64,000 bases of DNA from Nitratidesulfovibrio termitidis HI1. Its GTDB lineage: Bacteria; Desulfobacterota; Desulfovibrionia; Desulfovibrionales; Desulfovibrionaceae. The stretch spans positions 1,610,250 to 1,674,249 of the forward strand of contig NZ_KI632512.1 in assembly GCF_000504305.1 (NCBI RefSeq). Direction: 5' to 3'. Shown here in pieces: positions 900 through 19,363 of the stretch (position 1 is the stretch's first letter; every line of letters starts with the position of its first letter). A program made the translations under genes and the position numbers. The notes under the pieces are model-generated. The model did no database searches and was not told where the DNA came from. It was given only the letters and a program-made list of their open reading frames with translations.

Positions 900-993
900 C
901 CGGCTACCTCCGAGCCCGTGCGCGCGGCATAGGGCGTGGTTCGGCCATCCCCGCCTCGTAACATAACGCACCTGCCGCGATTCGGGCAAACCC

Positions 994-1049: not shown

Positions 1050-1074
1050 GGGACAGCCAGCCCCTGGCAGCACG

Positions 1075-1102: not shown

Positions 1103-1170
1103 GCTGTCAGGCCGGGCAAAAAGCCGGTACGGGGAAACCGGAAATCGCCATGAAGGACGTACCGTGTCCC

Positions 1171-1710
1171 CTACGGGCGCACCGGTACCGTGGATACGGA
1201 GTTGTACGGCGAACCTTCGATGACCCGGCGGCTTACCGCCAGATAGACCAGGGTGTTGCGTTCCTTGTCCCACAGCCGGGTAACCCGGGTGGCCTTGAAG
1301 AACACCGAGGTCGATTCCTTGAACACGTTTTCCTTGGCGGGCAGCTTGTCGGGAATGGTGATGGGGCCGGTCTGGCTGCACGAGACGGAGAAGTTGGACG
1401 GGTCTTCAGCCAGGCCCAGGCTGCCGCTGATGCCGCCGGTCTTGGCCTGGCTGATGAAACACGACACGCCGGGCAGGCGCGGGTCCTGGAAGGCGAAGAC
1501 GCACACCTGATGGTTGGCGCCCAGCAGCTTCCATTCGGTGGTCACGCAGCCCACTTCGCTGTCGTCGGCGCGCGCCGGGGCAGCCAGCGCCAGCATGCCG
1601 AGCAGCAGAAGCAGGACGACGGAGGCCAGCAGGACGACGGACAAGGTATCGTCGCGGGTGGCGGCAAGGGCCACGGCGCGGGGGCGGGCGGTGCGGGTAC
1701 GGGGATGCAT
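1171..1710 (-). CDS. creA: CreA family periplasmic protein
   Basis: 179 residues with an N-terminal signal anchor: a positively charged start, then a leucine/valine-rich stretch ending MLALAAPARADDSE. The mature part carries the CreA signature: VGCVTTEWKLLG near its start, FQDPRLPGVSCFIS, the motif SQAKTGGISGSLGLAEDPS, and a late DKERNTLVYLA segment. E. coli CreA has matching motifs at the same spacing and similar length. The molecular function of CreA is not established. AAGGAG lies about 8 nt before the ATG at 1710. It stands alone, with a hairpin downstream. Confidence 0.9.
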   Translation of the reverse strand: MHPRTRTARPRAVALAATRDDTLSVVLLASVVLLLLLGMLALAAPARADDSEVGCVTTEWKLLGANHQVCVFAFQDPRLPGVSCFISQAKTGGISGSLGLAEDPSNFSVSCSQTGPITIPDKLPAKENVFKESTSVFFKATRVTRLWDKERNTLVYLAVSRRVIEGSPYNSVSTVPVRP

Positions 1711-1922
1711 GGCGATGCTCCTTGGGCTTCGTGACGTCGGATGAACGCAACCAGCTTTCAGGATAACGCATCGCGCGGATGATGCAAGGCCGGGATGGCG
1801 GCGGAGGGGACATCACCCCCCTCCCACGTTATCGCGGAGCGACGCGCAAACCTGCCCGTCGGGCGCGCTTCGTGACCTTCGGGGCCGATGCCAACGGGCG
1901 ACCGGGCCCGTGGAAGCAGCCC

Positions 1923-3521: not shown

Positions 3522-3712
3522 GGGGCCTCCAGCGGGGAAGGAAATGGGGGATGGAGAAAAAGCGGAGGGATGTCCTGTTTTTGCTGTAACAGGGGGCGGG
3601 GCGGAGAGGCAACGGGGACGGCGGGGAAAAAGGCAGGGAACGGACGTGGCTGGCGGGCCCGGAAGGCCGGGCGAAACGGGGAGACGGGCGAGACGGGGAG
3701 TTCCGGGCATGC

Positions 3713-3740
3713 AAAAGGGGCCCCGCCAATGCGGAGCCCC
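3713..3740 (-). terminator. Intrinsic terminator of the dksA-like gene
   Basis: A 10-bp GC stem with one mismatch (3717-3726 with 3731-3740) is followed on the minus strand by TTTT. It begins a few bases after the stop of the DksA/TraR gene. Confidence 0.7.
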
Positions 3741-3744
3741 CCTG

Positions 3745-4104
3745 TCAGAACACCATGGGCCGGGCCTGCACCCCGCGCTCTTCGCGCGCGGACATGCAGT
3801 GCACGCAGCGGTTGGTGGTGGGCACGGCCAGCAGCCGCGCGGCGGGAATCTCGTTGCCGCAGTCGTCGCAGTAGCCGAAGTCCTCGTCGTCCAGCCGTTC
3901 CAGCGTGGCGCGCAGCACCTGCAAGCGGGCCTCGGTGCGCTGCTTCCACGAACGGTAGGTCATGCCTTCCACATCGGGCAGCCGTTCGGGGTCGTTCGCA
4001 TCCTCCACGCCCTGCAGGCCGCGCCAGCGGTCCAGGGCCTCGCGCAGGTCGCGGATTTCCTGCTTCAGTCTGCGCCGTACCACGGCAATGGTTTCTTCGC
4101 GCAT
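3745..4104 (-). CDS. DksA/TraR family C4 zinc-finger protein
   Basis: 119 residues. The start at 4104 (MREETIAVV) has a strong AGGAGG site 7-8 nt upstream. An N-terminal helical region with a charged coiled coil (about residues 1-70) precedes the C4 zinc finger CDDCGNEIPAARLL with its second pair NRCVHC. This is the DksA/TraR layout, which acts in the secondary channel of RNA polymerase. The coiled-coil tip carries DDEDFGYCDD, giving the acidic pair typical of the family. It is shorter than E. coli DksA (151 residues). It is a single-gene unit with its own terminator. Whether it works with ppGpp is unknown. Confidence 0.9.
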   Translation of the reverse strand: MREETIAVVRRRLKQEIRDLREALDRWRGLQGVEDANDPERLPDVEGMTYRSWKQRTEARLQVLRATLERLDDEDFGYCDDCGNEIPAARLLAVPTTNRCVHCMSAREERGVQARPMVF

Positions 4105-4201
4105 GTCGTTCCTCCTTCGGCGCGGCCTTGGCCCTGCCCGTGCAGTGCGCGGGGGGCGGCCAGACGCCGGGTGCCCCTTGGGGCAAGTTTGTCGGGTGGG
4201 G

Positions 4202-4242
4202 AAAAAGAAAAGGCCCCGTCTACCAGGCTGGTGGACGGGGCC
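4202..4242 (-). terminator. Strong intrinsic terminator of a short minus-strand unit
   Basis: A 13-14-bp stem with one G-U pair (arms 4212-4225 and 4229-4242) is followed on the minus strand by TTTTCTTTTT (4202-4211). It ends the short transcript that starts near 4442. Confidence 0.85.
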
Positions 4243-4270
4243 GCGTGTTGCGTGTGCGTGCGGAATGCCG

Positions 4271-4372
4271 CTATGCGCCCCCTCCCGTCCCGGTGGCGCG
4301 TTCACCACGGGCATAGGACCGGTCGGAACCGGTGAATGCGGTGGCGCGGACGGAAAGGGAAATGAAACGCAT
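4271..4372 (-). CDS. Possible 33-aa small protein (or part of a small RNA)
   Basis: A 33-codon frame beginning MRFISLSVRATAFTG and ending TGTGGGA. AAGGAA lies about 9 nt before the ATG. It is the only open frame in a compact unit with a good promoter at 4449-4476 and a strong terminator at 4202-4242, giving a transcript of about 230-240 nt. The peptide is basic with no clear membrane segment and matches no family I know. The unit could equally be a regulatory RNA whose ORF is accidental or dual-purpose. Confidence 0.4.
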   Translation of the reverse strand: MRFISLSVRATAFTGSDRSYARGERATGTGGGA

Positions 4373-4448
4373 GGGAGATTCCTTGTTCAGCTTCTGAGGG
4401 TAAATGCCGTGTGCTTCACGAAAGAACTGTTTCGGACGCAACGGCCCT

Positions 4449-4476
4449 ACTATACATCTTCCTGCGGGCAATGCAA
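4449..4476 (-). promoter_or_regulatory. Sigma-70-type promoter for the short unit
   Basis: On the minus strand TTGCAT (4471-4476) and TATAGT (4449-4454) are separated by 16 nt. The expected start is near 4442, some 70 nt before the 33-aa frame. Confidence 0.6.
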
Positions 4477-4681
4477 GCCCTGCTGCGCAACCTGTTCCGT
4501 GCTTCGCACCATGCTGCACCCGCAGTGCACAACGCCATGAATTATCTTGCGTTCGACGCTGGCAGCATATCACCCGCAGTGAACTCACGACGAGGGGTGA
4601 CAAACCGCGGCTTACGCAACGCGCCAGCCCGGCCCGGACCTTCCACAGGGCGCAAGGCATACGGACGCACCCCGGACACCG

Positions 4682-4724
4682 AAAAAACGGAACGCGCCGA
4701 CCGGCCCGAAGGCTGGTCGGCGCG
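4682..4724 (-). terminator. Strong intrinsic terminator of the 41-aa gene
   Basis: A 13-bp stem (4693-4705 with 4712-4724, one mismatch) is followed on the minus strand by a T-rich tract ending TTTTTTC (4682-4692). Confidence 0.85.
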
Positions 4725-4750
4725 CTCGCCGGCGTGGAACGCCGCTTGGC

Positions 4751-4876
4751 TCAGCGGTCCTGCGTTGCTTCAAAGGGCGCGGATGCCGCAGCATCGCGCG
4801 TTACCTCGTTCTGCGCATGGACGAACGTGAACAGGGCCGAGGTGAGAATGATGATGGCCAGCAACAAGTACCTCAT
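4751..4876 (-). CDS. Small secreted or membrane peptide, 41 aa
   Basis: The sequence is MRYLLLAIIILTSALFTFVHA followed by QNEVTRDAAASAPFEATQDR. The first 21 residues look like a cleavable Sec signal (basic Arg, long hydrophobic core, VHA cleavage site), leaving a 20-residue acidic peptide. AGAAGGAT lies 9-10 nt before the ATG. A promoter at 4964-4992 and a terminator at 4682-4724 frame it as its own unit. I recognise no family. A single-pass membrane peptide is an alternative reading. Confidence 0.6.
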   Translation of the reverse strand: MRYLLLAIIILTSALFTFVHAQNEVTRDAAASAPFEATQDR

Positions 4877-4963
4877 CGAACGGACATCCTTCTGCGACGG
4901 TTGAAGGTGGCGAGGTGCGGCGCCCTGGGCGCCTTCCTGCGCAATGCGGTCCCCGTTGCATGC

Positions 4964-4992
4964 GCTATAGTCCGGGATGGTCTGTCGCGCAA
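4964..4992 (-). promoter_or_regulatory. Sigma-70-type promoter for the 41-aa gene
   Basis: On the minus strand TTGCGC (4987-4992) and TATAGC (4964-4969) lie 17 nt apart, about 80 nt ahead of the start codon. The gap 4877-5285 (409 bp) holds only this promoter and the terC leader; I see no gene or recognisable manganese (yybP-ykoY) riboswitch in the rest. Confidence 0.5.
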
Positions 4993-5285
4993 GCCAAAAT
5001 GCGTTTCTTTTCCGCACGGTGCAAAACATTGCGCAACGGCGTGACGGCCACGTGGCAAGCCGTTACCGGATGCCCCGCCCCTTCTGGCGCACCGGCACAC
5101 CGTACGGCAATGCGGCAACGCCCCGCCCGACCGCCGCGTTGCGTCCATGCCGCCATCCTGCTAGATTGCGAGCATCGAAAAGCGTCCCCGCAGGCCAGCA
5201 CCCCCAACGCGTGGCCCGGCGCGCGGTTTCGCACCGCTTCACCCCATGCGACACCATCCGACCTAACCTGGCAGGGAGAACATAC

Positions 5286-6311
5286 ATGTCCGGCTACATG
5301 CTCTGGGGCGGCTTCAATCTTTTCGTGCTCGTCCTGCTGGCCTTCGACCTTGGCGTGCTGCACCGCAAGGACAAGGAGATGTCCCTGTCCGGCGCGCTGT
5401 GGATGAGCCTTGCCTACTTCGTGCTGGCACTGGCCTTCGGCGGCGGCGTGTTCGTGTTCATGGGCGAGCAGAAGGGGCTGGAATACATCACCGGCTACCT
5501 CATCGAAAAAAGCCTCAGCGTGGACAACATCTTCGTGTTCGTGCTGGTGTTCACCCATTTCGCGGTGCCCGCCGCCTTGCAGTACCGGGTGCTGTTCTGG
5601 GGCATTCTGGGCGCGCTGGCCATGCGCGCCGGGCTTATCCTGGCCGGGGCGGCCATCCTGAATGCCTTCCACTGGGTGATCTACCTGTTCGGCGGGTTTC
5701 TGGTGGTTACCGGCATCAAGATGCTGCTGGCCGCCGACAGCGAGCCCGACCTTTCCGGCAACCGGGTGGTGCGGCTGTTCCGCCGCCACCTCCGGCTGAC
5801 GGAAGGCTACGAGGGCGGGCATTTCGTGGTACGCAAGAACGGCCTGCTGCACGCCACTCCGCTGCTGGTGGTGCTGGTGATCATCGAGGTGTCCGACCTG
5901 ATCTTTGCGCTGGATTCCATCCCCGCCATCTTCGCGGTGTCCACCGACCCGTTCATCGTCTACACCTCCAACGTGTTCGCCATTCTGGGCCTGCGGGCGC
6001 TGTACTTCGCGCTGGCGGGGGTCATCCACCGCTTCCGCTACCTCAAGTACGGCCTGTCGCTGGTACTGGTGTTCATCGGCGCCAAGATGATCGTCAACGC
6101 CGCCTTCGACGCCAAGATCATTTCCACCGGCGTGGCCCTGCTGGTGACCTTCGGCATCATCGCCGGGTCCATGCTGATTTCGGTGCTGAAGACGCGGGGG
6201 GCGCCCGACGGGGGGGACGAAGAAAAGGCAGCCCCGCCCCTGGGCTGGGTGCCGGGCACCCCGAGCAAGGACGAAGAGGCCACCGGCGGCACCGGCAAGC
6301 CCCCGCGTTGA
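5286..6311 (+). CDS. TerC family integral membrane protein
   Basis: 341 residues with eight or nine membrane helices. TerC/Alx hallmarks are present: an early helix with FDLGVLHRKDK, the motif YLIEKSLSVDNIFVFVLVF, and the second half-repeat LVVLVIIEVSDLIFALDSIPAIFAV. Acidic residues in these membrane motifs (E and D of EKSLSVDN, EVSD, LDS) are the proposed metal-transport residues of the family, which exports manganese. The start at 5286 is the ATG after a purine-rich GGGAGAA site. The C-terminal 40 residues are a low-complexity Pro/Gly/Glu tail. It is monocistronic; perR follows after 179 bp. Confidence 0.9.
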   Translation: MSGYMLWGGFNLFVLVLLAFDLGVLHRKDKEMSLSGALWMSLAYFVLALAFGGGVFVFMGEQKGLEYITGYLIEKSLSVDNIFVFVLVFTHFAVPAALQYRVLFWGILGALAMRAGLILAGAAILNAFHWVIYLFGGFLVVTGIKMLLAADSEPDLSGNRVVRLFRRHLRLTEGYEGGHFVVRKNGLLHATPLLVVLVIIEVSDLIFALDSIPAIFAVSTDPFIVYTSNVFAILGLRALYFALAGVIHRFRYLKYGLSLVLVFIGAKMIVNAAFDAKIISTGVALLVTFGIIAGSMLISVLKTRGAPDGGDEEKAAPPLGWVPGTPSKDEEATGGTGKPPR

Positions 6312-6404
6312 CACCCTACCCACCCCGGAATATCTTTTATCCACGATCAACCGATCTTCAGGCTGCTCCGCCTCCGGCCCGCAAGGGACGAAGGCGGGCA
6401 TCCA

Positions 6405-6434
6405 CGATCGGCTGCGACTGGTCGCAGCTGATCG
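6405..6434. repeat. 14-bp inverted repeat between terC and perR
   Basis: CGATCGGCTGCGAC and GTCGCAGCTGATCG face each other across 2 nt (one mismatched pair). There is no T-run, so it is more like an operator or a hairpin in the perR leader (56 nt before the perR start) than a terminator. Confidence 0.6.
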
Positions 6435-6490
6435 AACTGGACGCACAGGCCCCACGACAACCGCCCCGGCTCCGGAACGCACCGGCTTTC

Positions 6491-7000
6491 ATGAATACCC
6501 GCACCCGCCTCGCCACCCTGCTGGACCGTCTGCGCGACAACGGGCACCGGCTTACCCCGCAGCGGGCAGCCATCATCCGCGCCCTGGTCGAACACGATGG
6601 GCACCCCACGGTGGAACAACTGCACCAGGCCATCCTGCCGGACTTTCCCACCACCAGTCTGGCCACGGTGTACAAGACCATCGCCCTGCTGAAGGAAGAC
6701 GGCGAGGTGCTGGAACTGGGCTTTGGCGAACTGGGCAGCCGTTATGACGGCAGGCACCCGGAACCGCACCCCCACCTTATCTGCACACGCTGCGGGGCCA
6801 TCGCCGACTACTCGTTGCAGGGGCTGGACGAAATGGTGGCGCGCATGGCGGCGGAAACAGGCTTTACCGTGGACAGCCACCGCTTCGACATGTTCGGGCT
6901 GTGCCCAACCTGTCGGAATACGGATCAAAAAACCCAGGATTGCGCGGTGACCAAGACGAAAGCCGCCCGCACCCGAGACACAGAACATCCTTCAGACTGA
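6491..7000 (+). CDS. perR: PerR-like Fur family peroxide/metal regulator
   Basis: 169 residues. An N-terminal winged helix (RLRDNGHRLTPQRAAIIRALVEHDGHPTVE, then SLATVYKTIALLKEDGEVLEL) is followed by a metal-binding dimerisation domain with HPHLICTRCG and the second pair GLCPTC. The two CxxC pairs form the structural zinc site of PerR-type Fur proteins. A 30-residue hydrophilic tail extends the usual length. It lies directly upstream of the catalase gene, whose promoter carries a Fur/PerR-like palindrome, so PerR (peroxide sensing through iron-catalysed His oxidation) is more likely than Fur or Zur. A perfect terminator follows the stop. Confidence 0.85.
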   Translation: MNTRTRLATLLDRLRDNGHRLTPQRAAIIRALVEHDGHPTVEQLHQAILPDFPTTSLATVYKTIALLKEDGEVLELGFGELGSRYDGRHPEPHPHLICTRCGAIADYSLQGLDEMVARMAAETGFTVDSHRFDMFGLCPTCRNTDQKTQDCAVTKTKAARTRDTEHPSD

Positions 7001-7062
7001 AGCGGCCCGACCACGCTGTCTATCCACATTTCACTACATTTACAGGACATCACCAGCACATC

Positions 7063-7093
7063 AGGCCCGGCCACGCCGGGCCTTTTCATTTTT
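7063..7093 (+). terminator. Intrinsic terminator after perR
   Basis: Perfect 9-bp stem AGGCCCGGC/GCCGGGCCT (7063-7071, 7075-7083) with a 3-nt loop, followed by TTTCATTTTT. It overlaps the start of the catalase promoter region. Confidence 0.9.
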
Positions 7094-7094
7094 A

Positions 7095-7130
7095 TTGACA
7101 GGGTTTCCGGCTTATGGATAATAATTATTA
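7095..7130 (+). promoter_or_regulatory. katA promoter with overlapping PerR/Fur-like box
   Basis: TTGACA (7095-7100), 16 nt, then GATAAT (7117-7122) forms a near-consensus sigma-70 promoter. The perfect 12-bp palindrome TAATAATTATTA (7119-7130) covers the -10 region, close to the Fur/PerR box core. Binding there would block polymerase, which fits repression of catalase by the adjacent PerR-like protein. Confidence 0.75.
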
Positions 7131-7223
7131 CGAAAGTATTTTTATCATCTTCTATAACGCCAGTCTCTCCGGACTGCTACCCGCTGGCCCCCCCTTAACA
7201 GCCACCCCCAACAGGAGGAATCC

Positions 7224-8666
7224 ATGACCAAGCACAAGCTCACCACCAACGCAGGCGCCCCCGTACCCGACAACCAGAACGCCATGACCGCCGGGCCGCG
7301 CGGCCCCATGCTGCTGCAGGACGTGTGGTTTCTGGAAAAGCTGGCCCACTTCGACCGGGAGGTAATCCCCGAGCGGCGCATGCACGCCAAGGGGTCCGGC
7401 GCGTACGGCACCTTCACCGTCACCCACGACATCACCAGGTACACCAAGGCCGCCCTGTTCTCGAAAATCGGCAAGAAGACCGACCTGTTCGTGCGCTTTT
7501 CCACCGTGGCGGGCGAACGCGGCGCGGCCGACGCGGAACGCGACATCCGGGGCTTCGCCATCAAGTTCTACACGGAACAGGGCAACTGGGACCTGGTGGG
7601 CAACAACACCCCGGTCTTCTTCCTGCGCGACCCGCTGAAATTCCCCGACCTGAACCACGCCGTGAAGCGCGACCCGCGCACCAACATGCGCAGCGCCAAA
7701 AACAACTGGGATTTCTGGTCCTCGTTGCCCGAGGCGCTGCACCAGGTCACCGTGGTCATGAGCGACCGGGGCATCCCCGCCAGCTACCGGCACATGCACG
7801 GTTTCGGCAGCCACACCTTCAGCTTCATCAGCCCGGACAACCAGCGCTACTGGGTAAAGTTCCACCTGCGCACCCAGCAGGGCATCAAGAACCTGACCGA
7901 CGCCGAGGCCGAGGCCATCGTGGCCAGGGACCGCGAAAGCCACCAGCGCGACCTGTACGACAGCATCGAGCGCGGCGACTTCCCCCGCTGGACCCTGTAC
8001 GTGCAGGTCATGCCCGAAAAGGACGCGGACACCTGCCCCTACCACCCCTTCGACCTGACCAAGGTATGGTTTCACAAGGACTACCCGCTCATCGAGGTGG
8101 GCGTGCTGGAACTGAACCGCAACCCCGAAAACTACTTCGCCGAGGTGGAGCAGGCCGCGTTCAACCCCGCCAGCGTGGTGCCGGGCATCGGCTTTTCGCC
8201 CGACAAGATGTTGCAGGGCCGCCTGTTCTCCTACGGTGATGCGCACCGCTACCGGCTGGGCGTGAACCATCACCTGATCCCGGTAAACGCCGCGCGCTGC
8301 CCCATGCACAGCTACCACCGCGACGGAATGATGCGCGTGGACGGCAACCACGGCAGCACCCTGGCCTACGAGCCCAACAGCTACGGTGAATGGCAGCAGC
8401 AGCCCGACTTCGCCGAGCCCCCGCTGGCCCTCAGCGGCGAGGCGGGGCACTGGGAATACACCTGCGACGACGTGGACTACTTCGACCAGCCGGGACGCCT
8501 GTTCCGCCTGATGACCCCGCAACAGCAGGAAGTACTGTTCCAGAACACCGCCCGGGCCATGGGCGATGCACCGGAAGCAATCAAGCGCCGCCATGTGGGC
8601 AATTGCGCCAAGGCCGATCCCGCATACGGCGCGGGCGTGGCCAAGGCCCTGGGCCTGAAGATGTAG
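7224..8666 (+). CDS. katA: Monofunctional haem catalase, small-subunit clade 3
   Basis: 480 residues, typical for clade 3. Distal haem residues are His54 ([13 protein letters not shown]) and Asn127 ([13 protein letters not shown]); the proximal haem ligand is Tyr337 in [14 protein letters not shown]. It breaks hydrogen peroxide down to water and oxygen in the cytoplasm. AGGAGG precedes the ATG at optimal spacing. The gene stands behind a PerR-box promoter directly after the perR-like gene, so peroxide induction is expected. All active-site motifs are intact. Confidence 0.97.
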
Positions 8667-8673
8667 TGCGGCA

Positions 8674-8711
8674 GGCGGCGGGCACTCCCTTGCGGGCAGG
8701 CCCGCCGCCTT
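8674..8711 (+). terminator. Hairpin terminator after katA
   Basis: Perfect 10-bp stem GGCGGCGGGC/GCCCGCCGCC (8674-8683, 8700-8709) with a 16-nt loop, 7 bp after the stop, followed by TT only. Confidence 0.6.
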
Positions 8712-8857
8712 CCCCCATCGCCCCGCTTTTCCGATCCGGAGTTCCGACGGCGCGGGCTGCACCCCGCAACCGGCGGAATGCCCGGCGGAATACCGTGATG
8801 CATCCGTTCCTTGGTGCATCCTCCTGTCCGCGGGCCACCCCTGCACGGCCACGCGGA

Positions 8858-8896
8858 AAGGCCCCCGGCGTCACGTGTGGACGTGCCGGGGGCCTT
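8858..8896. repeat. 12-bp perfect inverted repeat
   Basis: AAGGCCCCCGGC (8858-8869) pairs with GCCGGGGGCCTT (8885-8896). It is terminator-shaped in both directions but has only short T stretches and no adjacent gene. Confidence 0.6.
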
Positions 8897-9116
8897 GTGC
8901 GTCGTGCCATTGAACCTGAGAACGGGGAACGGGACCGCCTTGTCAGGCCGGTGTACCTTCCGGTGGGCATCCCCGCCATCTGCACGCCGGAGATGCGCGA
9001 AATCCGGGGACGGCCCGCCCACGGGCAGGTCAACGCGGAACACGCTCCCCACACCATTGACGCACGACCCGGCGCGGGGCCACGGGCCAGTCGTTTTCGC
9101 CTGCCGCCGCCACGCG

Positions 9117-9140
9117 AAAAACCCCGGCGCGGGGCCGGGG
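9117..9140 (-). terminator. Orphan minus-strand intrinsic terminator
   Basis: Perfect 7-bp CCCCGGC/GCCGGGG stem (9122-9128, 9134-9140) followed by TTTTT on the minus strand. No minus-strand gene precedes it until 11,896, beyond the AT-rich island. Confidence 0.7.
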
Positions 9141-9183
9141 CTTCAGACTATTAACAAACGACAACTTTCCCAGAGAGGCCCCC

Positions 9184-9200
9184 GTTACGGCAGCCGTAAC
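9184..9200. promoter_or_regulatory. Operator-like palindrome
   Basis: GTTACGGC, one central base, GCCGTAAC: a perfect 8-bp dyad. It sits 190 bp upstream of the RiPP-like precursor gene. I do not recognise the cognate regulator. Confidence 0.4.
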
Positions 9201-9374
9201 CGCGCCCCTGAACAGTATAAATAGTGTACACAACGCGTGGGGAAGGCTCCTCCGTCCCCCTTTGGCACCTGGCATTGCCATTCCAAAAGCTGCAAATAAA
9301 TTTATTGACTTTGACTTTCAATATCGACAATGTGCCTGTATAGCTTCCCGCCTAAACCGAAAATAGGAGCAGAA

Positions 9375-9965
9375 ATGAAAACCTTGATCCAATTTCTGGC
9401 TGCTGCCTCTGTGGTTTCAAATCCACTTCTCACGAACGCAAAGGATATAAATTACGCGAGACGCGTTCTGGACATATGGAATCATGACATAAAACAACTC
9501 AACAGTAACGAGGTCGTAAGCACTGCCCGAAATTATTCAACAGGAGACACTCACAAACTTTATGTAAACAACGAGGACTGCGTGTATGTTTACGTAGTTA
9601 GGCATAATGGAAAATTAAAAATAGCATCTAACGACTACAGAATAACTCAAGAATTCATGGACTATATAAATTCAGACAGCCGAATTTTTGAAAAATTTAT
9701 CGAAAAACCAAATATAATAATGAAAAAATCCCACGGCCCAACTTCGTTTGAAATAATACCAATCCATCCAGACGCGGATAACAATAACTTAATAATTCCA
9801 AAGAACCCTGTAAACATGTTACAGGCGTATGAAATCGAGCTACATACAAAATCAATAACGTCCGTCGCAGACTCTACAACATGTTGCGCAACAGGAACAT
9901 GCGACAACGTAATCATTCCCGGGGGAAGCAGCGGAAGCGCAGCCTGCCAATCTTGCCACTCTTAG
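9375..9965 (+). CDS. Putative RiPP (lanthipeptide-like) precursor protein
   Basis: 196 residues, AT-rich. The ATG at 9375 follows AGGAGC. Residues 1-22 (MKTLIQFLAAASVVSNPLLTNA) resemble a Sec signal peptide. Residues 23-158 form an unrecognised leader-like domain. The tail from about residue 160 is crowded with Ser, Thr and Cys: DSTTCCATGTC (Cys170, 171, 176), a GG at 183-184, then SSGSAACQSCHS (Cys191, 194). That composition is what a class II lanthipeptide core looks like. It heads a tight operon with an acetyltransferase and a LanM-type dehydratase (spacing 11 bp, then 4-bp overlap), so it is the natural substrate candidate. It is very long for a precursor. A secreted Cys-rich protein with unrelated modification genes cannot be excluded. 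Confidence 0.6.
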   Translation: MKTLIQFLAAASVVSNPLLTNAKDINYARRVLDIWNHDIKQLNSNEVVSTARNYSTGDTHKLYVNNEDCVYVYVVRHNGKLKIASNDYRITQEFMDYINSDSRIFEKFIEKPNIIMKKSHGPTSFEIIPIHPDADNNNLIIPKNPVNMLQAYEIELHTKSITSVADSTTCCATGTCDNVIIPGGSSGSAACQSCHS

Positions 9966-9976
9966 ACGAGGAGAAA

Positions 9977-10393
9977 ATGCAAATGGAGTTTTCTATAGTT
10001 GACAAAGCAGACCTCACCGAACAGACATGCACACACATTGGGCATATCTATGTATCATGCGGATGGGGAACCGCATACGATTGGAAAAAAATCAAAGAAG
10101 CGTTCACAAACACAGACTACTATCGCATTGCAATCAACAAATCCAAAGAACCTATTGGTTTTATTCGAGCTTTCACCGACAACGTATTCGCCACATGGCT
10201 TGCCGAATTGGTTGTCGGAAAAGACATGCAAAGGCAAGGCATCGGAACCGCACTGTTAAGCAAATTTGTTCAAGACTTTGAACATACAGCTATATACCTG
10301 CTCCCTCTAAAAGGCACAGAAATTTTCTTTACACGCGCAGGCTTGACCCAAAGAGACAAGTTGTCCGCCCATGCTCGCCGGGCTCTGCGGTGA
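9977..10393 (+). CDS. GNAT family N-acetyltransferase
   Basis: 138 residues. The acetyl-CoA binding motif A is clear: LVVGKDMQRQGIGTALL, with R/Q-x-x-G-x-G/A. The preceding strand and later IYLLPLKGTEIFFTRAGL match the GNAT fold. Two starts are possible: ATG 9977 (3 nt after GAGGAG) and ATG 9983 (9 nt after it, better spacing). The gene lies between the precursor and the dehydratase and overlaps the latter by 4 bp. By position it may acetylate the mature peptide, or protect the producer by acetylating it; acetyltransferases tailor other RiPPs such as goadsporin. The substrate is unproved. Confidence 0.75.
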   Translation: MQMEFSIVDKADLTEQTCTHIGHIYVSCGWGTAYDWKKIKEAFTNTDYYRIAINKSKEPIGFIRAFTDNVFATWLAELVVGKDMQRQGIGTALLSKFVQDFEHTAIYLLPLKGTEIFFTRAGLTQRDKLSAHARRALR

Positions 10394-11856
10394 ACCTCCA
10401 CTCCCAAAGCATCGAACAAGCCCTGACTGATTCTGTAAAAGAGCTTGTTCGATGCTACTTCAAAGAATTTCCAGTGCGTACACCTTTCGAGTGTGATCTA
10501 AAAACACTTGAACAGCGGCTCGTTAAAATAGGCATCGAACTATACGCGCCATCGATCACCTTGATGGCTGGCATTAACAACAATTTCGACACAAGACTCG
10601 CAGAACTTATCTCGCTTAGCTACATTGACGAGACATTTCAGCGCATAGTTAAAAACAAAACAAAATACATCACCGTTGCCCTCAACGAAATACATGCCTT
10701 CATCAGAACAAAATTTCCCACACAGCCTTACTCTCTTGAAATACAATTCCCTGGAAGCGACTCACACAACCTTGGAAGAGAGACGCTGTTTTTTAACGTC
10801 ATCCTTGCATATTCAAAAGAAAAATACGTATTCAAACCGTCATGCTGCGCAACCCAAAGGGTCATAAACAGCTTCATCACCGAAGCATTTCACGATAAAA
10901 TATGCAACAATCCTCCAATCCAAAAAATTGAAGCACACGAAAATGGAAATTATTGCATCAAAAAATTTATTAAAGTAGAAGGAATAAACAACGGAAACGA
11001 CATATCTGGGTTTATGTTTGCACTTGGAATGGTAATGTGCATTTCTTTATACACAAAAGCAACAGACCTTCACTTCGAAAACATCATTGTCACAAACGGA
11101 ATGCCCTACATTATCGACGGGGAGATCATTCTGGATGACACCCTGCCAGATCACTCAGAAATCGTATTAAATTCAGGAATATTGCAATATTTGCACTACG
11201 CCATGAACGACATTTACCAATTTACAAACATTGAAGCGAATATACTCAACAATGAACTAAGCTTTTTAAAAACGATAGAATACACACATCACTCATTAAA
11301 CAAAAAAGATTCAATACCCTTGGATAACAAAAAAAACATCTCCGCACTCGTCGATGGTTTTGCAGCATGTTTCAACTTAATTAAATCACGAAGAAAACAC
11401 TTTATAGATACGTCAGCAGCCATTCTATACGAAAAAAATATAAAAATCAGATACCTGCCAAGATTTACAGCATTTTACAAAATAACACAATTACTGCTTT
11501 GGACGCCTTTCCCACAAAGCACAGCAATGCGCATATCTGAAGTACAAAAAAGACTGCTTGCCCACACATTAACAGCAAGAGAAACGCGAAATCTCACCAG
11601 CAACATCCATCGCCTTACAAAGGCTGAGATAGCAGATTTCGAAGAAGGAGATATACCTTATTTCTGGGCGAATCGTAATGGGGCTCTGCACCACAGGACA
11701 GGAGTGATATCTAAAAATCACAGTAAACCACCAGCGACAATACTTGAGCGTACGATACGAGACGCGAGCGCAATGTCACTTAAGAAAACACTCATCCCAA
11801 AACTCAAGGATGCATTCAAGAGTGTCGTCAGAATAATAGAAGAAAAAAATCACTAG
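10390..11856 (+). CDS. Stand-alone LanM-type dehydratase domain (DUF4135), no cyclase
   Basis: 488 residues; GTG start overlapping the upstream stop (GTGA). Motifs of the class II lanthipeptide synthetase N-terminal lipid-kinase-like dehydratase are present in order: SDSHNLGR (Asp124, His126), YVFKP (Lys149), ATDLHFENII (Asp226, His228, Asn231), IIDGE (Asp243), and the late signature EIADFEEGDIPYF (413-425). This domain phosphorylates Ser/Thr and eliminates phosphate to form Dha/Dhb. A normal LanM is about 1000 residues and ends in a zinc-dependent LanC cyclase; here the protein ends at 488 and the next gene is unrelated and on the other strand. So the product may be dehydrated but not enzymatically cyclised. 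AT-rich composition argues for recent transfer. Confidence 0.85.
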   Translation: MNLHSQSIEQALTDSVKELVRCYFKEFPVRTPFECDLKTLEQRLVKIGIELYAPSITLMAGINNNFDTRLAELISLSYIDETFQRIVKNKTKYITVALNEIHAFIRTKFPTQPYSLEIQFPGSDSHNLGRETLFFNVILAYSKEKYVFKPSCCATQRVINSFITEAFHDKICNNPPIQKIEAHENGNYCIKKFIKVEGINNGNDISGFMFALGMVMCISLYTKATDLHFENIIVTNGMPYIIDGEIILDDTLPDHSEIVLNSGILQYLHYAMNDIYQFTNIEANILNNELSFLKTIEYTHHSLNKKDSIPLDNKKNISALVDGFAACFNLIKSRRKHFIDTSAAILYEKNIKIRYLPRFTAFYKITQLLLWTPFPQSTAMRISEVQKRLLAHTLTARETRNLTSNIHRLTKAEIADFEEGDIPYFWANRNGALHHRTGVISKNHSKPPATILERTIRDASAMSLKKTLIPKLKDAFKSVVRIIEEKNH

Positions 11857-11895
11857 AGGGATGGGCATGCACTAAGGCAATAGTCAGACACGGTC

Positions 11896-14745
11896 TTACC
11901 CGTACTGAATTTGTGCTGGAGATGCTAAGCCGTTCTCCCGCCGGGCAAGGGCCAGCCACGCCGCCGCCACCTTGCGGCAGAACACCTCGGAGGCTTCAAC
12001 CAGCAGTGGCATGTCGCGGGCCAGGTCGTCGAAGTACACGTCGTCGAACTTCTCGCGGTAGGTTGCGTATTCGCTCATGCGCCCCTTGCGGAATATGTCC
12101 ACCCAGTCCTGCACGATGGCGGAATCCACCTCCAGATGGAACTGGAACCCGTACGAGGCGTTGCCCACGCGGAAGCACTGGTTGCGGCACCGGTCGCCCC
12201 GCACCAGCAGGGTGGCCCCCTGCGGCAGGTCGAAGGTGTCTTCGTGGAAAGACATCAGGCGCGGCAGGGGCAGCGCCCCGGACAGAGCCGGACCCAACAC
12301 GGGGTCGCTCAGACCCGCGTCGGTGGGCATGAAGGCCACAAAGCCGAACTCCGGCGCGTCCATGGTCCACGGCCTGCCGCCATGGGCGCGGGCCAGCAGT
12401 TGCGCTCCCAGGCAGATGCCAGCCACCGGCTTGCCCGCCGCGTCGAAGACGCGCAGCAGATCCATCAGGTGCGGGAAATGGGGCGAGCCTTCGTCGTCCC
12501 AGCAGTGCTGCGGGCCGCCCAGGACCACCAGCGCGTCGTACCCGGCCAGGGCTGCGTCGAGCGACGGCAGCGCATCTCCCGCCGCAGGCAAAACATCACC
12601 TTGCCCCGGTCGCAGGGTGGTCAGCGCCGCGCCGCAGCGCGCCAGTTCCTTGCAGAAGTTGCCGCAGGGGGCGTCGTCGCTGTGCCGCACCACCAGCACG
12701 CGCAGCCCCGTGACACCATCGTCGGGCCACGGGGTTACCCGCACGCAGGTTTCGTAGTACGGCGTGCCGCGCCCCACCAGACTGGCCAGCGCGCGGGTGA
12801 GCAGGTTCAGCCCGTGTCCGGCCTTGTTCCAGCCGCCGCGCTCGGCCACCAGGATGTCCGCCCGCTGGCCGTCTGCGGTGCGCAGGACGGCCTTCACCGC
12901 GCCGACCCTGCTTTCCACCCGCACCACCGCCCCGTCGGACAGGCCCAGCCGGGCGGCTTCTTTTGTGGCCAGCACCACCTCGGTCAGGGCGTCGTGCTCG
13001 GCCATGGTGCGCTCGGAGCAGATGTACCCGTGCGGGGCGATGGTCAGCAGGCGGTAGGGATAGTCCGGCTCCACCGCGCCCAGCCCAGCGGGGTCGAAGT
13101 CGGTCATGAACCGGAACTTGCCGGACGGCGTGGGAAAGGTCTTGTCCGCGTAGGGCGCCATGGGCGCGTCCAGCCGGTAGGCCCCGGCGCGCAGCCGCTC
13201 CAGCGTGCAGCCCTGCGCCCACATGGGCGTGCACAGGTCGCACAGCCACTCGTCCACCCCGCGCCGAAACCGTTCGGCAAAGGGAAAGCGCGCCGCAAGA
13301 TCGTGGAACATCATGAATTCCGAACGGCACTCTCCCACCGGCTCGATGGCCTTGTTCACCGGCCCCACGTAGTTGTGGCCGTAGCTGGCCATGGCGTCGT
13401 CTTCTTCCAGAAAGGTGGTGGCGGGCAGGAATACGTGGGCCAGATCCGCCGTGTCGTCCATGAAGTGGCCGGAATAGACCACGAATTCCGCCTTGCGGAA
13501 GGCGCGGGTAACGGCCCCGGCATCCGCCGCCATGCAAGCCGGGTTGCCCGCCGTGACCATGATCATGCGGATTTCCGGGTCGCGCGCGTCCAGAATCTCG
13601 CGGCCAATCTCGGGCAGCAACAGGGTGCGCCGGGGCGGGTTCAGCCCGTCGCCCCAGTACTGCTGGTCGTAGGGGCCGTATTCCTCGAAGCCCTGGCTCA
13701 CCCCGCCGCCCGGCACGCCGATGTTGCCGCTTATGGCCCCCAGCGCGTCCACGGCGCGGATGGACAGGTGCGCCGCCTCGTGCCGGTGCATGCCCCAGCC
13801 TAGCAGGATGGACGTGGGCCGCTGGCGCAGCACCATGTCCGCCAGAAATTCCGCGTCGGCCACGGGTACGCCGCAACGGGCGCACAGGTCGTCCACCGTG
13901 TACCGGTCAAGGATGCGCAGGTATTCCGCCGCGCCCTCAGCGTGATGCTGCATGAATTCGCGGTCCTCGCCCCCGGCATGCAGGATGAGTTTGGTCACCG
14001 CCATGGCCAGAAAGGCGTCGGTGCCCGCGCGCGGGGCGATATGCCGGTCGGCCAGCGGGGCCGAGCGATTGCGGGCCGGGTCCACCAGAACGACCGTTGC
14101 CCCTCGCTTGCGAATCTCGCGCAGGATGGGCACCAGGCTGATCTGGGTGGATGCCGGGTTGCGGCCCCACAGGATGAGCGAGTTGCAGTTGTAATGGTCC
14201 AGCGGGTCGTGCGAGACCCGTTCGCCAAAATCGAGGTTCTGCGAACCCTGCCCCGCCCCGCCGCACAGCGAGCCGCGCAGGGTGGTCACCCCGCCGAACA
14301 GGTTGAAGAAATAGCGGTTCAGCAGCTTCAGCGCGGTACGTTCGCCGTAGCCCTGATAGTACAGAATGGCTTCCGTGCCCGATTCGTCGCGGATGGCGGT
14401 CATGCGCGCGGCGATGCGGTCCAGCGCCTCGTCCCACGTGGCCCGCCGCCACGGCTGGGTGCGGTGGTCGCGCAGCAGCGGGTGCGTGATGCGTTCCGGG
14501 CTGTACACCCGCTTCACATAGCGCTGCGCCTTGACGCAGGCCTTGCCGCGCGTCAGCGGGTGGTCCGGGTCGCCCGCAAGCCGCACCAGACGGCCATCGC
14601 GCACGGTGGCCACAAGGCCGCAGCTGTTGGGGCAGTCGCGGGTGCAACTGGTAATGATGCGCTTCTCACCGGAAGCCTCGCCCCCGTCATGAGCAAGCGC
14701 GAGGCCCGGCGCAATGCCGGGCGCATGAGCCGCTGTGGTGCACAT
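11896..14745 (-). CDS. Molybdopterin oxidoreductase fused to a class I glutamine amidotransferase domain
   Basis: 949 residues. Residues 30-75 carry the 4Fe-4S binding pattern CTRDCPNSCG with a fourth Cys70 (GKACVKA). The body (about 75-700) is a DMSO-reductase/formate-dehydrogenase-type bis-MGD fold, ending in a dinucleotide-binding barrel (PHGYICSERTMAEHDALTEV). Residues about 715-940 are a complete GMP-synthase-like amidotransferase: nucleophile Cys778 in GICLGAQLLA and His870/Glu872 in FQFHLEV. No Tat signal is visible, so it is probably cytoplasmic. Fusion of an oxidoreductase with an amidotransferase is unusual; substrates are unknown. The start at 14745 has only a weak GGGATGGA upstream, so the first residues are uncertain. 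Confidence 0.85.
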   Translation of the reverse strand: MCTTAAHAPGIAPGLALAHDGGEASGEKRIITSCTRDCPNSCGLVATVRDGRLVRLAGDPDHPLTRGKACVKAQRYVKRVYSPERITHPLLRDHRTQPWRRATWDEALDRIAARMTAIRDESGTEAILYYQGYGERTALKLLNRYFFNLFGGVTTLRGSLCGGAGQGSQNLDFGERVSHDPLDHYNCNSLILWGRNPASTQISLVPILREIRKRGATVVLVDPARNRSAPLADRHIAPRAGTDAFLAMAVTKLILHAGGEDREFMQHHAEGAAEYLRILDRYTVDDLCARCGVPVADAEFLADMVLRQRPTSILLGWGMHRHEAAHLSIRAVDALGAISGNIGVPGGGVSQGFEEYGPYDQQYWGDGLNPPRRTLLLPEIGREILDARDPEIRMIMVTAGNPACMAADAGAVTRAFRKAEFVVYSGHFMDDTADLAHVFLPATTFLEEDDAMASYGHNYVGPVNKAIEPVGECRSEFMMFHDLAARFPFAERFRRGVDEWLCDLCTPMWAQGCTLERLRAGAYRLDAPMAPYADKTFPTPSGKFRFMTDFDPAGLGAVEPDYPYRLLTIAPHGYICSERTMAEHDALTEVVLATKEAARLGLSDGAVVRVESRVGAVKAVLRTADGQRADILVAERGGWNKAGHGLNLLTRALASLVGRGTPYYETCVRVTPWPDDGVTGLRVLVVRHSDDAPCGNFCKELARCGAALTTLRPGQGDVLPAAGDALPSLDAALAGYDALVVLGGPQHCWDDEGSPHFPHLMDLLRVFDAAGKPVAGICLGAQLLARAHGGRPWTMDAPEFGFVAFMPTDAGLSDPVLGPALSGALPLPRLMSFHEDTFDLPQGATLLVRGDRCRNQCFRVGNASYGFQFHLEVDSAIVQDWVDIFRKGRMSEYATYREKFDDVYFDDLARDMPLLVEASEVFCRKVAAAWLALARRENGLASPAQIQYG

Positions 14746-15044
14746 GTCGTTCCATCCCGTGGCGCAACCCCCGGATGGCGGCCCGAAGGCCGGAACGGGG
14801 CGTGCCCTGCCCGCGCGCCCGCAGTCCCGTTCATGGCACAGCCCGCCCGGCGGGGCAAGCGGCCCCGTGCCCCGTGTAGCCGCCTCTCCCTCCCGCCGGG
14901 CGCCCGCCACCCGTCCGCACCGCAGCCGTCTGCCCGTAGCCGTCTGCCCGCAGCCGTTCGGGATGCGCCATCCCCTTGTTAAGGGAGCGTCCCGGCGCTA
15001 CAACCATGGCGGCGCCCGCGCTATCCCGCGCGCCGCGCATCATC

Positions 15045-15089
15045 GTCATTATCGTCATTATCGCCATTATCGCCATTATCGTCATTATC
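15045..15089. repeat. 9-bp microsatellite, five copies
   Basis: GTCATTATC / GCCATTATC repeated five times just upstream of the D-Ala-D-Ala-ligase-like gene. It lies in the leader or promoter area, so copy-number change could alter spacing. Confidence 0.85.
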
Positions 15090-15145
15090 CACATGGCGGG
15101 CCGCATGGCCATGCGCCGCGCCCGCAAACCATACAGGAAGCCATC

Positions 15146-16372
15146 ATGTCCAACGGCAAAATCCGCGTCGCGGTCTTTTTCGGCGGGCGTTCGCCCGAGC
15201 ATGACGTCAGCATCGTCACCGGATTGCAGGTCATCCAGGCGCTGGACGCCGCGCGGTACGAACCCGTGCCCGTCTACGTGGACCGCTGCGGCGTCTGGCG
15301 CACCGGCGAAAAGCTGCTGGACCGCTCCACCTACATCCCCGCCCGCGACGCCGACGGCCTGCCCGCCGTCTCGCTGGAGATCGCCCCCGGCAAGGGCGGC
15401 ATGCTGGTGGAGCAGACCTCCAGACTGTTCGGCAAGCCCAGGCGCATTCCCTTCGACGTGGCCATCCCCGCCTTCCACGGCCCCTACGGCGAAGACGGCG
15501 ACATGCAGGGTCTGTTCGAAGCCGCAGGCATTCCCTACACCGGCATGCGCGTGTTGGCCTCCGCCATCTTCATGGACAAGGCGGCCACCAAGCAGGCCCT
15601 GGCCGGTACCGGCATTCCCACGCTGCCCTGCGCGGTGCTGCGCAAGCCCGTGGGCGGCCTGCTGCCCCCGCGCGCCGACATCGAGGCCGCGCTGGCGGGC
15701 ATCACCCTGCCCGGCTGCCTGAAGCCCGCGCACCTTGGCAGCAGCATCGGCGTGGCCAAGGTGGATTCCATCGAAGAAATAGAGGCGGTGCTGCCCGGCC
15801 TGTTCACAAACGACACCGTGGCCATCGTGGAGCCGTATCTGGACGGCTGCGTGGAATACAACATTTCGGTGCGGCGCAACGGCGAAGGGCACGCCACCTC
15901 GGCCATCGAACGGCCCAAGCGCGACAGCGAACTGCTGGACTTTCGCCAGAAGTACCTTTCGTCGGGCGGCAAGACCGGCAGCAAGACCGGCGGAGCGGGC
16001 GGCGCCAAGAGCGCGGGCGATTCCGGCAGCGCGGGCATGCTTTCGCTGACGCGCGAGATCAACCCCGACCTGCCCGAAAGCCTGGAGGGCCGCATCCGCG
16101 ACTTTGCCGTGCGCACCTACGCGGCCTTTGGCGGCACCGGCGCGCCGCGCATGGACTTCATGTACGACGCCACCCGCGACGAGGTGTGGCTGAACGAGGT
16201 GAACCCCATCCCCGGCTCGTTCGCCTTCTTCCTGTGGGAAGCGGCGGAAACCCCGGTGCGCTTCACCCGGCTGCTCTCGCTGATGATCGACGAGGCGCGG
16301 GCCATGGCCCGGCACACCGCCTGTCCGGAAGATCCGACCCCGGAGGCCGCCCGGCTGTTCCCCCGCCGGTAG
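15146..16372 (+). CDS. D-alanine--D-alanine ligase-like ATP-grasp enzyme
   Basis: 408 residues. FFGGRSPEHDVSIVTG (residues 11-26) is the Ddl N-terminal signature; the central ATP-grasp holds LPGCLKPAHLGSSIGVAKV, and the magnesium-binding end reads APRMDFMY with WLNEVNPIPGS. The family joins two D-alanines (or D-Ala and a D-hydroxy acid) with ATP. A Gly/Ser/Lys-rich insert (about residues 272-297) lies in the mobile loop region and is absent from typical Ddl. It is longer than usual (about 300-370). GGAAG precedes the start. It heads an operon with a hydrolase and a Mur-type ligase, which suggests a dedicated dipeptide pathway rather than housekeeping ddl. Confidence 0.85.
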   Translation: MSNGKIRVAVFFGGRSPEHDVSIVTGLQVIQALDAARYEPVPVYVDRCGVWRTGEKLLDRSTYIPARDADGLPAVSLEIAPGKGGMLVEQTSRLFGKPRRIPFDVAIPAFHGPYGEDGDMQGLFEAAGIPYTGMRVLASAIFMDKAATKQALAGTGIPTLPCAVLRKPVGGLLPPRADIEAALAGITLPGCLKPAHLGSSIGVAKVDSIEEIEAVLPGLFTNDTVAIVEPYLDGCVEYNISVRRNGEGHATSAIERPKRDSELLDFRQKYLSSGGKTGSKTGGAGGAKSAGDSGSAGMLSLTREINPDLPESLEGRIRDFAVRTYAAFGGTGAPRMDFMYDATRDEVWLNEVNPIPGSFAFFLWEAAETPVRFTRLLSLMIDEARAMARHTACPEDPTPEAARLFPRR

Positions 16373-16642
16373 CCAGAGCGTCAGCTTGCCCGGGGTATGA
16401 TGCCCCCCGCGTGCATCGCGCGCCGTCCCACCGGGCGGCGCGCGTTTCTTTTGCCATGCCGCCTCCGCCTTTGGCCTGCACCTGTCCGCCATGCAGGTGC
16501 TGGTCCGCCACGCCCCTTGCCCCTTCGCGCGCCCCCGGTGTACACCACGGGGCGCGCCACGCCGTTGATCCCGCCCGTTTTCGCGGCACCTTCCGCACGC
16601 GGGCAATGGCCGCAGCGCCGAACACACCACTCCGAGGCCAGA

Positions 16643-17512
16643 ATGGATTCCGCCCAGTTCAACGCCACGCCCTCCGCCGCCGCAGACCCGGCAGCCCCCT
16701 GCATGTACGTGGTGCACCTGCCCAACGCCGCGCCCGCCCGCCGAAAGCCGGAGGACACCGGCGCAGCAGATGCCGCGCAACAGATCGCCCCCCAGATCGT
16801 TCCGCAAATCATATGGGCGCACGGCTGGATGCACACCCACGCCAACCTGCTGCCGCTGGCCAATACCTGCACCCACGGGCGCGACAACTACCTGCTGGAC
16901 ATGCCCGGCTTTGGCCTCTCCTGCATGCCGCCCGCCACCTGGGGCACCCAGGACTACGCCGACCACGCCGCCGCCTGGCTGCGCACCCTGCCGCGCGGCA
17001 GGCGGATATGGGTGGGACATTCCTTCGGCTGCCGGGTGGGTCTGCAACTGGCGGCCCGCCACCCGGACCTGGTGGACGGACTGTTCCTGATGGCCGCCGC
17101 CGGGCTGCCCCGCCGCCGAACCCCCATGGAGAAATTCACGCGCGGGTGCCGCATCGCCGCGTTCAAGACGCTGAAGCACCTGCACTGGCTGGGCTTTGGC
17201 GCGGAGCGGGTGCGCCGCTTCTTCGGCAGCGCGGACTACGCCAACGCGGGGCCGCTGCGGCCCGTGTTCGTCAGCGTGGTCAACGAGAACCTGTCCGACG
17301 TGGCCGCCCGCGTGGACTGCCCCGTACACCTGCTGTACGGCGAAAACGACACGGAAACCCCGCCCTCCATGGGGCAGGACTTTGCCCGGCTGCTGGCGCA
17401 CGCGCACCTGCAGGTGCTGCCGCGCTTCGGGCATCTGGATATTCTGACGGCGGGCGGCCATCAGGCCGTGTACGCCCTGGACACCTTCTGCGAGGAAATC
17501 TTCGGTGGCTAG
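16643..17512 (+). CDS. Alpha/beta-hydrolase fold protein
   Basis: 289 residues; start chosen at ATG 16643 behind CGAGG. Motifs: IIWAHGWMHTHANLLPL (oxyanion-hole region), nucleophile elbow WVGHSFGCRVG, acid in LLYGENDTETPP, and catalytic His in RFGHLDIL. All triad residues are present. It lies between a Ddl-like and a Mur-ligase-like gene and overlaps the latter by 8 bp, so translation is coupled. A role in hydrolysing or transferring a peptide or ester in cell-wall precursor metabolism is inferred from context only. The 270 bp before it hold no recognised feature. Confidence 0.8.
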   Translation: MDSAQFNATPSAAADPAAPCMYVVHLPNAAPARRKPEDTGAADAAQQIAPQIVPQIIWAHGWMHTHANLLPLANTCTHGRDNYLLDMPGFGLSCMPPATWGTQDYADHAAAWLRTLPRGRRIWVGHSFGCRVGLQLAARHPDLVDGLFLMAAAGLPRRRTPMEKFTRGCRIAAFKTLKHLHWLGFGAERVRRFFGSADYANAGPLRPVFVSVVNENLSDVAARVDCPVHLLYGENDTETPPSMGQDFARLLAHAHLQVLPRFGHLDILTAGGHQAVYALDTFCEEIFGG

Positions 17513-19175: not shown

Positions 19176-19363
19176 AATTTTTTGAAATGCAAACAAAACC
19201 ACACAAAAAAACGACGACACTGCTCAATCTTCCATTTGGTTCTACTATAGTCACCCATATGCTCCCTTTGACTCTCTCCCCCCTCTTCTGTTGAGCAATA
19301 AAGCATCCTAGCGGCAACATTCAAAACAGAAACACCTAGAACCCAAAAGGCATTGAGTGAATT

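Follow-up and report, generated by a model that had tools for sequence, protein, structure and literature searches.

The window analysed here is a stretch of 64,000 nucleotides from Nitratidesulfovibrio termitidis HI1 (contig NZ_KI632512.1, positions 1,610,250 to 1,674,249), whose genome of 4.26 Mb is assembled as a single contig. Within this window, an AT-rich insert carries three genes on the + strand, coding for a protein of 196 amino acids (aa), a GNAT acyltransferase of 138 aa and a DUF4135 protein of 488 aa. The last one corresponds to the dehydratase part of a LanM-type class II lanthipeptide synthetase but has no LanC cyclase domain. The guanine and cytosine content (GC) is ~61-73% on either side of the insert (positions 1-18500) compared to 41% inside. 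The first gene is followed by the GNAT gene after 11 bases, which in turn overlaps with the DUF4135 gene at the bases GTGA. The bases AGGAG and GAGGAG are located upstream of the first gene and of the GNAT gene, respectively. Computed with independent bases of the island's composition, a frame without stops would arise with a probability of 7e-6 over the first gene, 2.4e-4 over the GNAT gene and 1.6e-13 over the 488 codons of the third gene. The coordinates of all features are given in Table 1.

The 488-aa protein was matched by Pfam DUF4135 with 123 bits at a cut-off of 29 (E 1.7e-35, residues 105-426), and the LanM structures LicM2 and CylM were found with it by phmmer. The LANC_like domain (PF05147) gave no Pfam match in this protein at E-values up to 10, while it was detected in three out of three full-length LanM proteins used as control. 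The protein ends 62 residues past the DUF4135 match and carries no fused class III cyclase-like domain. Ten catalytic positions were checked, namely D252, H254, K274, D347, H349, N352, D364, E366, R506 and T512 in CylM numbering, and all of them were kept in an alignment of 20 proteins, although the identity over the domain to the other 19 was as low as 14-23%. CylM is not part of this alignment; eight positions were paired with it pairwise, while R506 and T512 were assigned from the family alignment and from the distance of six residues between them, the pairwise alignment around R354/T360 being too weak alone. Nine of the ten positions are covered by CylM mutant data (PMC4550811), and E366 was added by this analysis.

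With its DUF4135 domain and the ten kinase and elimination positions, the enzyme is similar to the LanM class II synthetases (TIGR03897; CylM, LicM2). It differs from them in the missing LanC and in its size, as the 15 full-length LanM proteins compared have 967-1129 aa, and its score of 100.5 bits for NCBIfam TIGR03897 was below the cut-off of 304. The system, in which the cyclase was tested for and is absent, lies outside LanM proper, but its enzyme should act like the dehydratase half of a LanM. The dehydration domain of CylM comprises residues 4-624, and CylM 1-625 alone efficiently dehydrated its substrate (PMC4550811). The dehydratase domains of CylM, HalM2 and NukM are listed as sufficient (PMC10676384).

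Table 1. Features of the insert in the window and of related loci in other genomes of the class (positions are those of the window unless a locus is named).
Feature	Position	Strand	Basis
AT-rich insert, ~2.8 kb, 41% GC, in a high-GC chromosome	9141..11934		GC and same-genus homology breaks; edges approximate
Orphan 196-aa protein, candidate precursor; basic-hydrophobic N-terminus, C/S/T-rich C-terminal tail	9375..9965	+	Open reading frame, family searches, composition
Cys/Ser/Thr-rich tail, residues 156-196 (5 C, 8 S, 6 T of 41)	9840..9962	+	Shuffle test
Single-domain GNAT acyltransferase, 138 aa, P-loop QRQGIG	9977..10393	+	Pfam Acetyltransf_1; alternative start at second ATG two codons shorter
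DUF4135 (LanM-type) dehydratase without LanC domain, 488 aa, GTG start	10390..11856	+	Pfam; LicM2/CylM matches
D124/H126 = CylM D252/H254 (elimination, P-loop)	10759..10767	+	20-protein and CylM pairwise alignment; roles from PMC4550811
K149 = CylM K274	10834..10836	+	20-protein and CylM pairwise alignment
D226/H228/N231 = CylM D347/H349/N352 (kinase)	11065..11082	+	20-protein and CylM pairwise alignment
D243/E245 = CylM D364 and Glu two residues on	11116..11124	+	20-protein and CylM pairwise alignment
R354 and T360, taken as CylM R506/T512 (phosphate elimination)	11449..11469	+	Family alignment, same six-residue spacing
PDT-repeat frame preceding a cyclase-less dehydratase	L032 8752-8916	-	
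PDT-repeat frame preceding a cyclase-less dehydratase	L028 937-1116	+	
Nif11-leader precursor, radical SAM and short DUF4135 cluster	L034 (G620 C83) 689-3987	-	

The middle gene product was matched by Pfam Acetyltransf_1 with 37.9 bits at a cut-off of 20.7 (E 2.4e-9), and its QRQGIG motif fits the acyl-CoA P-loop pattern [Q/R]xxGx[G/A] quoted in PMC13060382. In the 196-aa protein, 19 of the last 40 residues are Cys, Ser or Thr, a number reached in none of 20,000 shuffles, and five of the six cysteines lie within the tail (P 0.0017). A core rich in Cys and Ser/Thr, which is a trait of class II lanthipeptide clusters, is thus present. An earlier description of this locus made by a model from the DNA letters alone, the sequence-only reading, had named a tight AT-rich three-gene set with a tail of this kind on the first protein, a GNAT as the middle gene and a LanM-type dehydratase with intact motifs and without cyclase; all four were confirmed by the composition, profile and alignment results.

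The N-terminus of the 196-aa protein, MKTLIQFLAAASVVSNPLLTNA, resembles a Sec signal by eye and has a mean hydropathy of 1.25 over 19 residues. Its lysines and hydrophobic run might fit a leader as well as a Sec signal. In the latter case, the protein might be an ordinary exported one in which the six cysteines pair as disulfides, and the substrate of the operon would be found elsewhere. However, the tail is far outside the protein's own composition, and the gene heads the operon directly before the GNAT gene, so that this explanation is considered highly improbable. Pfam yielded only IBR (0.017) and DUF2661 (0.03) on the 196-aa protein, both below cut-off. Leader families were not detected by NCBIfam at E-values up to 10, with no NHLP or Nif11 leader match, and no relatives were obtained from plasmids and phages at E 1 or from viral contigs. 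Among the 348 genomes searched of the class Desulfovibrionia, nine matched at E 0.1 per genome, the own genome included. The best other match (E 0.005) contains internal stops and was taken as chance, as were two loci that were read for relatives (L036 and L037, the latter a prepilin-like frame by eye).

A LanC elsewhere in the genome was not found at E 0.001, a search whose control matched in one of 14 control genomes. The stop of the DUF4135 gene lies only 78 bases from the conserved right flank, which leaves no room downstream for a frame-shifted LanC. Both a frame-shifted LanC in the adjacent sequence, which the sequence-only reading had named as a finding that would speak against it, and the lone remote LanC it had proposed to look for were therefore rejected after inspection of protein, flank and genome. 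It had further stated that no cyclase, protease or exporter is nearby. This holds for the cyclase, and no C39 peptidase reached the cut-off of 22 bits in the genome, the best two candidates scoring 21.3 and 21.0 bits at distances of 114 and 186 kb. For other exporters and proteases it rests on inspection by eye of the open reading frames at 4000-22000, where none was seen and no profile search was made. YcaO was likewise not seen by eye in this range, without a profile search of the genome.

By eye, the genes flanking the insert code for a catalase (7224-8666) on the left and a molybdopterin oxidoreductase-like protein (11896-14910, - strand) on the right. Homology to genomes of the same genus ends at ~9140 on the left (compared to G007) and restarts at 11935-11942 on the right. 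The right flank was matched at 90-92% by all seven other same-genus genomes, and the left flank well by some of them, with only short pieces in G003, G001 and G002. Out of the eight genomes, counting the window's own, only this one has the dehydratase. The corresponding gap is filled by genes for a substrate-binding protein and a sensor kinase (names by eye) in G004 and G007, is almost empty in G006 and G005 and measures 2.7-3.4 kb in G001, G002 and G003. As the window retains the end of the sensor kinase gene (~8940-9056, - strand) and a piece of old intergenic DNA (~9089-9140), the kinase pair was lost and the AT-rich piece entered at ~9141-11934, separately or together. This remnant at 8940-9140 derives from a two-gene unit present in G004 and G007 and lost in the window genome, G006 and G005. 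The insert looks horizontally acquired. Element ends, flanking repeats or a tRNA were not recognised at the insert, and scans for consensus sites were uninformative with four promoter-like sites (5.6 expected) and six terminator-like sites (3.5 expected), the latter all on the - strand.

At about even confidence, we favour a small, horizontally acquired operon around a LanM-type dehydratase that works without a lanthionine cyclase and modifies the tail of the 196-aa protein. Gene order, open frames and catalytic residues were observed directly, while the chemistry, its target, the contribution of the GNAT and the nature of the end product are inferred as follows. The DUF4135 enzyme would phosphorylate Ser and Thr in the C-terminal tail with ATP and would then eliminate the phosphate, which yields dehydroalanine and dehydrobutyrine, and an acetyl or acyl group would be attached to the same product by the GNAT. 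As the genome search gave no LanC, the product would either remain linear or have its five tail cysteines add spontaneously to the dehydro residues. A phosphorylated product, or one with bridges formed non-enzymatically, is conceivable as well.

Relatives of the enzyme were searched in the phylum and in the class. Out of 395 genomes drawn from the phylum, only the window's own has DUF4135 at 1e-5. Among the 348 class genomes, four carry it, with proteins of 505 aa in G685, 513 aa in G666 and 510 aa in G620 besides the one of the window. The 14 control genomes of either search gave no match, and the window's own genome was the positive control. All four class proteins are short (488-513 aa) and have no LanC domain. 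No LanC was detected at 0.01 in the genomes of G685, G666 and G620 (the last being a 69%-complete draft) nor at 0.001 in any of the 348 class genomes, with one of 14 control genomes matched. Collecting DUF4135 proteins below 550 residues with their neighbours had been proposed in the sequence-only reading; carried out in the class, it returned only short proteins, two of which follow a PDT-repeat frame and one of which occurs with a Nif11 precursor, and this favours its idea. Eighteen other DUF4135 loci (17 plasmids and one contig), chosen for spread and not randomly, served as comparison: fifteen were full length, and three were short. One of the latter, of 664 aa, is from a haloarchaeal plasmid (L058 3371-5365, + strand); this LanM-like gene has no LanC and two changed catalytic positions, and it adjoins a NUDIX gene and transposases. 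Dehydratase relatives were absent among viral contigs; the only match among phages was to an Enterococcus phage record without annotation, and genome contigs gave one full-length LanM.

The other two short comparison loci demonstrate that LanM genes do become truncated. In Rhizobium etli the protein has 582 aa and lies next to an IS66 gene, and in Rhizobium johnstonii TP60 the gene is split in two (477 and 339 aa), compared to a single gene for 973 aa with similar neighbours in strain TP5. The window copy might accordingly be the decaying remnant of a once complete LanM operon in which a cut on the right side removed LanC, exporter and protease, and which makes nothing useful. The short distance between the stop and the conserved right flank would agree with this, and no relative of the window copy was found for measuring selection. 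However, the frame stops near the natural end of the dehydratase domain, inside island DNA and away from the junction, and the ten catalytic positions and both upstream genes are intact. Furthermore, the orthologous short genes of G685 and G666, which belong to one genus, have a ratio of nonsynonymous to synonymous substitution rates (dN/dS) of ~0.29, and neither a longer DUF4135 protein nor a LanC was found in the class. A relic is therefore regarded as unlikely, and the class-wide search favours a genuine cyclase-free kind over a single broken gene. A maximum-likelihood tree built from 20 domains placed the four short class proteins in three positions, with G685 and G666 paired and the window protein and G620 each apart. 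A single clade of all four was not rejected (approximately unbiased test, p 0.061; 0.017 and 0.052 in two three-row tests), and it is possible that the cyclase was lost repeatedly.

The enzymes of G685 and G666 kept all ten catalytic positions each. In these genomes, frames of 54 and 59 aa with a strong ribosome site end 35 and 27 bases, respectively, before the short dehydratase gene. They consist of a 20-residue head (10 residues identical), followed by six and seven units of five residues and then PGSS or PGRL. Full 15-base units in register contain PDT in six out of six cases in G685 and seven out of seven in G666, while the third positions of the codons vary. With the units taken by register, the variation between units of G685 falls preferentially on third positions (P 0.003); units chosen by translation could differ only at third positions. 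When the two genomes are compared, third positions account for 18 of the 26 differences in the repeat part, and the dN/dS of the whole frame is ~0.31 (hand-made alignment). From this third-position pattern the repeat part behaves as coding, whereas the head adds no such support. In both loci (L032, L028), a macro-domain-like gene (by eye) is divergent from the PDT frame, and an upstream stretch with TTGACA is conserved.

A search for PDT-like frames matched 72 of the 348 class genomes at E 0.1, i.e. 70 besides G685 and G666. Of eight further PDT-like loci (L043-L050), all except L049 were read and resemble 15-base repeat frames or chance. Among the matching genomes, DUF4135 occurs only in the window's own, G620, G685 and G666. 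L043, L044, L045 and L047 are arrays of 15-base repeats with PDTR-, SGTDV- or SGKPV-like frames. As PDTR-like repeats are found elsewhere in these genomes, the PDT array may have arisen from such DNA.

The dehydratase might also act as proposed above, with the tail of the 196-aa protein ending as a thioether-bridged lanthipeptide that is closed without LanC, either spontaneously or by a cyclase of another fold. The five Cys and fourteen Ser/Thr in the 41-residue tail would suit such bridges. On the other hand, a LanC-like gene was found neither in the genome nor in the class, and the PDT repeats contain no Cys in G685 and one in G666; the single Cys of the G685 frame precedes the repeats. With repeats nearly free of Cys, bridging is hardly the point in these two genomes, and for the window it is considered decidedly improbable as well.

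In G620, the short DUF4135 gene and a radical SAM gene overlap and are preceded by a Nif11-leader precursor (Pfam 5.6e-7). This argues that short DUF4135 proteins occur in peptide-modification clusters, and the locus is possibly a mixed radical SAM/kinase peptide cluster, in which the enzyme may act as a kinase or may lack dehydratase activity. The GNATs of the window and of G620 show no similarity. The G620 case is also relevant to another explanation, in which the DUF4135 protein of the window is a Ser/Thr kinase-like regulator or modifier that phosphorylates the 196-aa protein or another target without elimination, the GNAT and the Cys-rich protein being an unrelated regulatory or stress unit. 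Of the four elimination positions only one is left in the G620 protein, whereas its kinase positions are conserved. The small LanM-like protein CA_C0082 is a quorum-sensing effector for which a kinase role is discussed, with the needed residues missing or partly kept (PMC10301443). The window protein, in contrast, keeps the equivalents of D252, H254, R506 and T512, which are all important for phosphate elimination by CylM (PMC4550811), and its partner has a tail loaded with Ser, Thr and Cys. A pure kinase is thus regarded as distinctly unlikely. A defence system was considered as well and rejected, as PADLOC gave no match at 0.01.

Concerning the surroundings of the insert, the adjoining catalase gene has a second copy with 98% DNA identity at another site of the same genome (G000 C1:911334-912792). 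A second AT-rich stretch at 19364-20557 (+ strand), 7.5 kb from the dehydratase gene, codes for a protein in which HEPN_RES_NTD1 (Pfam 2e-32) is combined with RES (4e-11), an architecture that is toxin-like.

Among described systems, the nostolysamides (NpuA, NpuM, NpuN; PMC13060382) share the set of precursor, class II enzyme and GNAT. They differ in that NpuM forms rings and NpuN is a tandem GNAT, while the GNAT of the window has a single domain and its 196-aa protein has no match to the NHLP or Nif11 leaders. Dehydrazoles and the LanMbC enzymes such as CcaM are similar in combining dehydration by DUF4135 with a product without lanthionine rings; CcaM differs from the window enzyme by a fused class III cyclase-like domain, which it has retained and requires, and it acts after YcaO (PMC10676384). 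The CA_C0082-type LanM-like proteins of Clostridium (670-728 aa) are likewise small, but parts and residues of the dehydratase are missing and the cyclase-like domain has no zinc residues, so that the window protein is the reverse (PMC10301443). A LanM-like gene standing alone in a Prevotella strain is mentioned in PMC10352776. The survey of PMC10676384 kept proteins of at least 500 aa only, which would exclude a protein of 488 aa, and that of PMC11251773 takes the cyclase domain as its starting point. No description of cyclase-less LanM dehydratases as a family was found in the open PMC literature. What the sequence-only reading named a candidate new system of ribosomally synthesised and post-translationally modified peptides is better described as a cyclase-free variant of class II dehydratase systems.

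Several results weigh against a cyclase-free dehydratase acting on the 196-aa tail. The 196-aa protein is an orphan outside the known leader families, so that its link to the operon is based on adjacency and composition, and its designation as a precursor in the sequence-only reading was not supported. By position, the window enzyme is ~128 residues shorter than CylM before the P-loop, and its branch in the tree is very long with 4.4 changes per column. When excised from CcaM, the dehydratase domain (CcaM 1-645) showed no activity in the absence of the cyclase domain (PMC10676384), and activity of the window enzyme is therefore not to be taken for granted. Structure models of both proteins were unusable, with mean predicted local distance difference test scores of 41 and 33. 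The G620 enzyme lacks D252, H254 and T512, three of the ten positions and all of them for elimination, with the kinase positions kept; a short DUF4135 protein is hence not necessarily a dehydratase. The lineages of the class have no common precursor type, and identity between the window enzyme and its G685 and G666 counterparts is only ~16%, so that the PDT case is not directly transferable to the window. Within this case, the unit test was not clear for G666 (P 0.19), where the last two codons of the units also vary in residue, and the head shows no excess at third positions (5, 7 and 5 differences at positions 1, 2 and 3).

Class II lanthipeptide enzymes are usually viewed as two-step machines. 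We tentatively suggest, with somewhat less than even confidence, that the class, in which no LanC was found, keeps a cyclase-free branch of class II dehydration. In such a branch, stand-alone DUF4135 enzymes would act on ring-free substrates, i.e. PDT peptides and the Cys/Ser/Thr-tailed protein, with dehydro residues as the final product and with GNAT or radical SAM partners, possibly from several origins. If this is true, dehydrated linear peptides would be end products in their own right, made by a dehydration-only lineage with a nearly Cys-free PDT substrate. The targets for genome mining would become wider, and a compact natural dehydratase of ~500 aa would be at hand for peptide chemistry. 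The PDT pair offers a direct test of this question, as ring formation is hardly a confounding factor there.

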